Of a stretch of 64,000 nt of DNA, positions 32,632 to 34,202 are shown one piece after another. Position numbers and translations under genes: made by a program. Source of the DNA: Spirochaeta cellobiosiphila DSM 17781 (lineage in GTDB: Bacteria > Spirochaetota > Spirochaetia > DSM-17781); contig NZ_AUFW01000017.1 of NCBI RefSeq assembly GCF_000426705.1, forward strand, positions 62,001 to 126,000, given 5' to 3'. Within the stretch, counting starts at the first letter, position 1. Each line of letters opens with the position of its first letter. The notes under the pieces are model-generated. The model had not been told where the DNA came from, made no database searches, and was given only the letters and a program-made list of their open reading frames with translations.

Positions 32632-33540
32632 ATGACAATATATGGCATTGATGAAGCAGCATTGGGACCTATTTTAGGACCTTATACTGCAGCTGTTTCA
32701 GGTTTTACTACAGAAGGTACAATTCCTTTAAGAGAAATTCTAAAGGACATCTGGTTTGATACAGCGCCCAAAGATCCTCTCTGCTTGGTCTGTGACTCCA
32801 AAAAATTATATTCCCCAGACAAGGGCATAGAAGAACTAGAACAGACAGTACTTTGTTTTTTTTATCTACTTATGGGCAGGCTTCCTGACTCCTTTAATGA
32901 CTTTCTACTACATTTAGGATCAACTACTTATGAATCTATCCCCTGGCTTCATAATGATATTAAACTTCCTCTCCATGAGAACAATGAACATCTAATGGAA
33001 AGAGCACAAAAATTATCTGTCTATCTCCAATCTCTTAATGTTCACCTAAAACAAATTAAGCTCCAGTTTGTTCCTGCTCTGACCTTCAATCAGACTCTAC
33101 AGAAATATCCCAACAAGGGCAGGACGACTCAGATTCTATTAAGCCCCTTGTTTCCAAAAGTACACAAAGACATAACAATAATTATAGATAAACAGGGAGG
33201 TAGACGATTCTATGGAGATTGGCTTCTTGAATTGTACCCACATCAGAGTATTAGGGCCTTTCAAGAAGGTCAGTTACGCAGCTCTTATGAAGTAGGACAA
33301 GCAAACATTACTTTTGAACAAAAGGCTGATGATCAGTTTTTTGCTACAGCCCTATCGTCACTTTTTGCTAAGTATGCTAGAGAAGTAGCTATGCATCAAT
33401 TTAATCACTACTGGCAGAATCATTATCCTCATTTACAGAAAACTGCGGGATATCCCCAAGACGGTAAACGTTTTATTAAAGAGCTAAGTGAATATCAAAA
33501 TATTGAGGAGATTCTGCCTATACTTGTGAGAGCTAAATAG
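32632..33540 (+). CDS. divergent RNase HII-like protein
   Basis: A 302-residue protein with the RNase H2 fold signature in order: GIDEAALGPILGPY (Asp7, Glu8), CDSKKLYSP (55-62), IIIDKQGGRR (Asp186), KADDQFFATALSSLFAKYARE (Asp233) and a C-terminal TAGYPQDG. The four acidic residues of the RNase HII active site are kept. However, the DEAGRGP motif that reads the ribose 2'-OH is DEAALGP here, and about 80-100 extra residues separate the second and third motifs (RNase HII is about 200-220 residues). It is probably a paralogue with a changed substrate rather than the housekeeping enzyme. It is first in a run with the Fic-like, phosphate transporter and avtA genes. Confidence 0.72.
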   Translation: MTIYGIDEAALGPILGPYTAAVSGFTTEGTIPLREILKDIWFDTAPKDPLCLVCDSKKLYSPDKGIEELEQTVLCFFYLLMGRLPDSFNDFLLHLGSTTYESIPWLHNDIKLPLHENNEHLMERAQKLSVYLQSLNVHLKQIKLQFVPALTFNQTLQKYPNKGRTTQILLSPLFPKVHKDITIIIDKQGGRRFYGDWLLELYPHQSIRAFQEGQLRSSYEVGQANITFEQKADDQFFATALSSLFAKYAREVAMHQFNHYWQNHYPHLQKTAGYPQDGKRFIKELSEYQNIEEILPILVRAK

Positions 33541-33551
33541 AAGGATAGGTA

Positions 33552-34202
33552 ATGAATAAATATAAAGGCTTTGACCTCAAAGCAATTGAAAAAAACTTCA
33601 AGCATTTTCAGAAAAATTTTGATCATATTAATGATAATTTGGAAATGAGACGAGAAGACTTTACAAAAACTATCATAAGTCAACTAATGGAAGGTTATGA
33701 ATTCCTAAACAGCTTATGGTCTCGTGACATTGACTTATTCAGCTTATCTGGTCTCTATAATATGCTTGAATTGAATCATATTGTACTCTGTGGAACAGAT
33801 AAACGAGTGAGGCGAGAACACTATCAACACCTAGAAACTACCAGAAAAAATTTCCAATCACGTATACAACCAATATATGACTGGTACAAACGCAATGCCC
33901 TTAAACACAACCCCTACAAAATAGCAGCTCAATACTACGGCCAAGCTTTAAGCTTCCCTCAACTATTCTTTGAAGGAAACCATCGAACAGAAAATATGAT
34001 TGTTAATTACTACTTACTAAACAAAGGACTTCCTCCTTATATTATTCATATAGACACGGCCATTGAATATTTAAATGTTTCCTCACGGATTAAATTTAGT
34101 GATAAAGATAAAATGGGAGAAGGATTTAAACGTATAAAACATACGAAAGACTTTAGAAAATTTATTGAAACCCATGGTAATAACGAGTATCTCAAGGAGT
34201 AA
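33552..34202 (+). CDS. Fic-like protein with degenerate active site
   Basis: A 216-residue, mostly helical protein. The segment SFPQLFFEGNHRTENMIVNY (135-154) followed by LLNKGLPPYII resembles the Fic motif HxFx(D/E)GNGRxxR and its following helix. Phe, Glu, Gly, Asn and Arg are kept, but the catalytic His is Gln137 and the second Gly is His144. If it is a Fic protein it is unlikely to transfer AMP in the usual way. It begins 11 bases after the RNase HII-like gene and ends seven bases before the Na/Pi gene. Assignment to Fic is by motif reading only. Confidence 0.55.
   Translation: MNKYKGFDLKAIEKNFKHFQKNFDHINDNLEMRREDFTKTIISQLMEGYEFLNSLWSRDIDLFSLSGLYNMLELNHIVLCGTDKRVRREHYQHLETTRKNFQSRIQPIYDWYKRNALKHNPYKIAAQYYGQALSFPQLFFEGNHRTENMIVNYYLLNKGLPPYIIHIDTAIEYLNVSSRIKFSDKDKMGEGFKRIKHTKDFRKFIETHGNNEYLKE

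Follow-up and report, generated by a model that had tools for sequence, protein, structure and literature searches.

RNase HII, a nearly universal enzyme, initiates the excision of ribonucleotides that have been wrongly placed in DNA, and this locus raises the question of whether a protein that keeps the catalytic acids of that enzyme and alters its GRG loop still does the same job. The open reading frame at 32632-33540 (+ strand) of the window, the whole 64,000-nucleotide stretch of the Spirochaeta cellobiosiphila DSM 17781 genome analysed here, starts with ATG and encodes a product of 302 aa. A first-pass annotation had described it as an RNase HII relative without a GRG motif that should cut something else. 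Our analysis points, with a probability of roughly 70%, to an RNase HII-like type 2 RNase H that replaces RNase HII in one branch of the Spirochaetia and in most Planctomycetota, and whose activity we infer.

Fold and conserved residues

Pfam PF01351 (RNase_HII) matches the 302-aa protein at 33.7 bits (cut-off 25.8, E 4e-8), with the match confined to residues 220-279. The NCBIfam RNase HII equivalogs stay far under their cut-offs, TIGR00729 (archaeal type RNase HII) giving 30 bits where 123 are needed, and across the family RNase HII profiles score about 20-40 bits. TIGR00716, the rnhC equivalog, gave no match in the family proteins scanned (P0001, L087 and L143). An AlphaFold2 model based on a 24-member alignment has a mean pLDDT of 93.2, and its best PDB matches in Foldseek are the RNases HII of Methanocaldococcus jannaschii and Thermococcus kodakarensis (1eke, 2dfh, 1io2; E about 1e-7), with RNase H2 subunit A and RNase H3 lower in rank; the model and these matches show an RNase H2-type fold. 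In the model the protein begins at the catalytic strand and is without an N-terminal TBP-like domain. Classical RNases HII of the same class measure 179-210 aa against 302 aa here, and two blocks, at roughly residues 60-117 and 188-229, contain the excess of ~85-90 residues. The features are listed below, with residue correspondences and geometry taken from alignment and Tm standing for Thermotoga maritima RNase H2.

32632..33540, + strand: RNase HII-like protein, 302 aa (open reading frame and translation, PF01351 above cut-off, AlphaFold2 model, PDB fold matches)
32644..32670, + strand: GIDEAALGP, residues 5-13, with D7 and E8 (each 82/82) and the loop that reads [AG]-L-G where RNase HII has G-R-G
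32794..32802, + strand: DSK, residues 55-57, K57 corresponding to Tm K47; invariant (82/82)
32809..32982, + strand: insertion 1, about residues 60-117, without counterpart in classical RNase HII (alignment with RNases HII and HIII)
33187..33213, + strand: D186 and the family motif D[RK]xGGR.xY, residues 186-194, opening insertion 2 (conservation)
33214..33318, + strand: insertion 2, about residues 195-229, helix and strands (AlphaFold2 model, conservation)
33328..33330, + strand: fourth catalytic acid, D233; among 81 members, 33 have Asp and 48 have Glu
33358..33384, + strand: SLFAKYARE, residues 243-251, with K247 (Tm K138) and R250 (Tm R141); invariant (81/81)
33445..33459, + strand: AGYPQ, residues 272-276, with Y274 the counterpart of Tm Tyr163; invariant (81/81)
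33529..33531, + strand: R300, aligned to Tm R182 (human R235); invariant (81/81)

Conservation was counted in an alignment of 82 family members, 81 of which reach the C-terminal part. Members from the pattern scan described below were found with patterns that hold the motifs, so that motif invariance is biased upward among them, and the protein-based and profile-based member sets are free of this bias. D186, G189 and Y194 are present in 82/82 members and R191 in 81/82; N153 and K162 are likewise invariant (82/82), as are G273 and D277 (81/81). Glu is the fourth acid in most planctomycete members. An hhalign alignment gives P 1e-17 over residues 224-281, AKYARE falling on AKV.RD and AGYPQD on the archaeal SGYPSD. 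Insertion 1 contains helices at 67-81 and 88-94 in the model. Insertion 2 separates the third catalytic acid from the fourth, with strands at 207-212, 216-221 and 224-229, and its residues E212, S217, Y219 and F228 are kept in 78-80 of 81 members.

Most of what had first been read from the gene is borne out by these results: its kinship with RNase HII (PF01351, the fold, the acids and DSK), the RNase HII tetrad of Asp7, Glu8, Asp186 and Asp233, with Asp or Glu in the last place, the pairing of AKYARE with AKVTRD, and a length about 90 residues greater. The claim that the GRG motif is missing needs rewording. DEAGRGP has indeed become DEAALGP, but the loop is altered rather than absent, with its second glycine and its surroundings retained: position 10 is Gly in 70/82 members and Ala in 12/82 (Ala in the 302-aa protein), position 11 is Leu in 81/82 (the exception, L143, reads G-Y-G) and position 12 is Gly in 82/82.

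Distribution, descent and neighbouring genes

The 302-aa protein was searched against 395 Spirochaetia genomes. Apart from the window's own genome, relatives turned up in 24 genomes belonging to a single taxonomic family (f26), where the aligned parts are 34-46% identical and a few relatives are fragmentary or split, and G020 has a remote version. Two f9 genomes match only at E 0.003-0.006, and the one inspected (L058) has a classical RNase HII with GRG. A single-sequence scan of GTDB contigs returned no relatives; an alignment-based pattern scan of GTDB contigs returned 234, and the 80 kept come from Spirochaetales, Planctomycetota, two genomes for which no phylum is named, and a single isolate, Desulfoferrobacter suflitae. 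Planctomycete relatives have about 30% identity to the 302-aa protein, and the family profile strongly matches 133/149 genomes in a drawn sample of Planctomycetota. The family is not a product of chance, because it recurs across Spirochaetia (at 33-44% identity) and Planctomycetota and its model reaches a pLDDT of 93. A mobile or defence gene was rejected, because searches of plasmids and viral contigs gave no relatives and no viral fold matched at E<=0.001. A search of the open-access literature, with subscription papers outside its scope, found no description of the family, so the protein apparently belongs to an undescribed one, as the first-pass annotation had supposed.

The G020 member (L057, 1462-2682, - strand), from a Spirochaetia genome of another family, has 406 residues and two much larger insertions, and in the tree it branches apart from the remaining spirochaete members.

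Trees were built from 149-159 aligned core columns. The family forms its own clade with 100% UFBoot; a split with 100% UFBoot holds bacterial and archaeal-type RNase HII together and leaves RNase HIII on the family's side, and AU tests did not reject alternative placements (p 0.15-0.30). Judged from these columns the family appears to be a separate clade, and no sister group is claimed for it. With RNase HII (rnhB, PF01351) it shares the fold, the acid tetrad, DSK, AKxxR[DE], the Tyr of GY.xD and the C-terminal Arg, whereas it has [AG]LG for GRG, the two insertions (~85-90 aa) and D[RK]xGGR.xY following its third acid. RNase HIII (rnhC) has in common with it the RNase H2-type catalytic domain, the GXG loop and, in planctomycete members, Glu as fourth acid. 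Unlike RNase HIII, which is without the junction Tyr, the family keeps Tyr274, and the 302-aa protein lacks the N-terminal domain and a TIGR00716 match. Eukaryotic RNase H2 subunit A shares the catalytic residues, an SGYP.D-like Tyr motif and equivalents of human R186 and R235, but RNASEH2A keeps GRG and its insertions differ from those of the family.

The gene had also been said to lead a run with a Fic-like protein:

33552..34202, + strand: next gene, weakly Fic-like (Fic score of its homologues), starting 11 bp downstream

The gene is there, but the pairing is not conserved and carries no meaning. Its homologues score 16-17 bits on Fic (cut-off 24 bits) and are present, at 40-59% identity, in about 30 Spirochaetia genomes, most of which are without the family; a functional link was rejected for these reasons. 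The protein reads FFEGNHRTEN against the Fic motif HPFxDGNGRTGR, with Gln seemingly in place of the catalytic His, and is perhaps an inactive Fic. Many Spirochaetales members have an upstream ORF that overlaps by 4 bp, and RlmN and acyl-CoA synthetase-like genes downstream, and one planctomycete group has an Lgt-like gene upstream. As these neighbours are lineage-specific only, a conserved neighbourhood or shared pathway was rejected.

RNases H in the same genomes

A PF01351 search of the window's genome (G000, 96% complete) found no second RNase HII/HIII-type gene, so that the search for a separate rnhB proposed in the first-pass annotation leaves this gene as the sole one of RNase HII type. 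Classical RNase HII is carried by 52/60 sampled relatives from the class. It was found by PF01351 in 0/26 Spirochaetia genomes that hold a family or G020 member, and every PF01351 match above noise in these 26 is the family gene. Nine of the 149 Planctomycetota genomes have a strong RNase HII match (L189-L197; genomes G520, G484, G459, G468, G480, G435, G450, G419 and G440), and in these nine genomes the family profile gives nothing but weak matches at the RNase HII itself (Fisher p 1.5e-10, indicative only, since the genomes are related). Eight of these nine RNases HII were inspected and are of archaeal type (SGYPSD-like) with GRG; four scored with TIGR00729. The family and true RNase HII are thus mutually exclusive in the genomes sampled. 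One genome, G010 (96% complete), showed neither RNase HII, RNase HIII nor the family, and an assembly gap is possible there.

A second PF01351 gene is present in 13/20 family-bearing genomes from the pattern scan (Desulfoferrobacter and, for the most part, Planctomycetota). An RNase HII paralogue beside the family was considered for the planctomycetes and rejected, since all 13 extra genes (L149-L161, G396-G414) are RNase HIII by alignment and residues: GAG replaces the GY with its Tyr, DExGKG is seen where the N-terminus is readable, and the three scanned gave 152-169 bits on the rnhC model. Several of these 13 genomes are without detectable RNase HI. RNase HI was found in 18/18 Spirochaetia genomes tested (G000 is among the 18, and 14 of them have a family or G020 member), and RNase HI or HIII in 19/20 pattern-scan genomes. 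In G404 the family is present and neither RNase HI nor HIII was seen, again with a possible assembly gap. Because RNase HI (or HIII) accompanies the family, the activity that these genomes would otherwise miss is that of a junction nuclease. A survey of 353 prokaryote genomes assigned its only planctomycete, and one spirochaete out of five, to the genomes that have RNase HI alone (PMC1950709, Table 2), and a 2025 study of the Planctomycetota reported that rnhB is largely lacking there (PMC11929135).

The altered GRG loop and competing explanations

In structures of Tm RNase H2 with substrate, G21, R22 and G23 contact the junction 2'-OH through their backbone amides and Tyr163 does so through its hydroxyl; Tyr163 also stacks onto the next deoxyribose, phosphates are bound by K47 and K138, and the GRG loop is braced by R141 and R182 (PMC3025331). 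The R22A mutant has unaltered activity on most substrates and a small decrease at a single ribonucleotide, Y163F has a severe effect, and G21S is reduced with Mg2+ and near normal at junctions with Mn2+ (PMC3025331). The counterparts of this junction module, Y274, K57, K247, R250 and R300, are all invariant in the family, and by analogy with Tm the loss of the Arg would be among the least damaging changes possible to it. The altered loop does not support the conclusion that the enzyme should cut something else, because the Arg matters so little and the other junction residues are kept, the Tyr and both loop-bracing arginines among them. That conclusion is opposed as well by the genomes: this is the sole gene of RNase HII type in its own genome, and the family stands in for classical RNase HII across lineages, two facts that suggest the job of RNase HII for it. 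Ala at the place of G21 (12/82 members, including the 302-aa protein) counts against this, as G21S lowers Tm activity.

A nuclease with a different substrate, its new loop reading something besides an RNA-DNA junction, would account for the nearly invariant change of Arg to Leu and for two conserved insertions next to the active site that have invariant residues of their own. It is nevertheless quite unlikely, given a distribution complementary to that of RNase HII, the intact remainder of the junction module, the mild effect of R22A and the absence of any conserved genomic neighbour pointing to another pathway. Mutual exclusion might also be seen if life without RNase HII were tolerated in these lineages and the family had another job.

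Loss of the loop Arg might instead have led to a cutter of hybrids resembling RNase HIII, with little junction activity. RNase HIII too has a GXG loop with a variable middle residue and Glu as fourth acid (PMC4132731), the latter as in most planctomycete members, and the trees put the family beside RNase HIII and not with RNase HII; both the Glu and the tree position are points against replacement. This reading is still unlikely: RNase H3 is marked by the missing junction Tyr and cannot cut junctions (PMC3025331), whereas Tyr274 is invariant in the family, hybrid cutting is already covered by RNase HIII in 13/20 family-bearing genomes and by RNase HI in G000, and the proteins scanned gave no TIGR00716 score. 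Low RNase HII profile scores are what an RNase HII decaying towards loss would give, but catalytic acids, DSK, Lys, Arg and Tyr that are invariant in 81-82 members of two phyla, and a family present in 133 of 149 planctomycete genomes, make decay barely credible.

Replacement of RNase HII by a non-orthologous or very diverged enzyme remains the most economical account, with an activity and substrate that we infer. Such an enzyme would use a two-metal active site formed by D7, E8, D186 and D/E233, and would nick the ribonucleotide-bearing strand 5' of the ribonucleotide at an RNA-DNA junction, single ribonucleotides in DNA included. The 2'-OH would be read by the backbone amides of [AG]-L-G together with Tyr274, with Arg250 and Arg300 probably bracing the loop. 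For the classical minor-groove Arg, which is lost, the likeliest replacement contact would be the D[RK]xGGR.xY loop with the added hairpin by the active site. RNase HI or HIII would handle hybrids, leaving junction and single-ribonucleotide work to the family. More tentatively, at somewhat short of even odds, the family may be a third class of prokaryotic type 2 RNase H, descended apart from RNases HII and HIII and carrying out ribonucleotide excision in Planctomycetota and some Spirochaetia through sensing by D[RK]xGGR.xY and not by the GRG Arg.

The family would fill the RNase HII gap for most of the Planctomycetota and for part of the spirochaetes. It is also a natural test of the GRG loop, in which the Arg has been removed and the Tyr and the bracing arginines kept.
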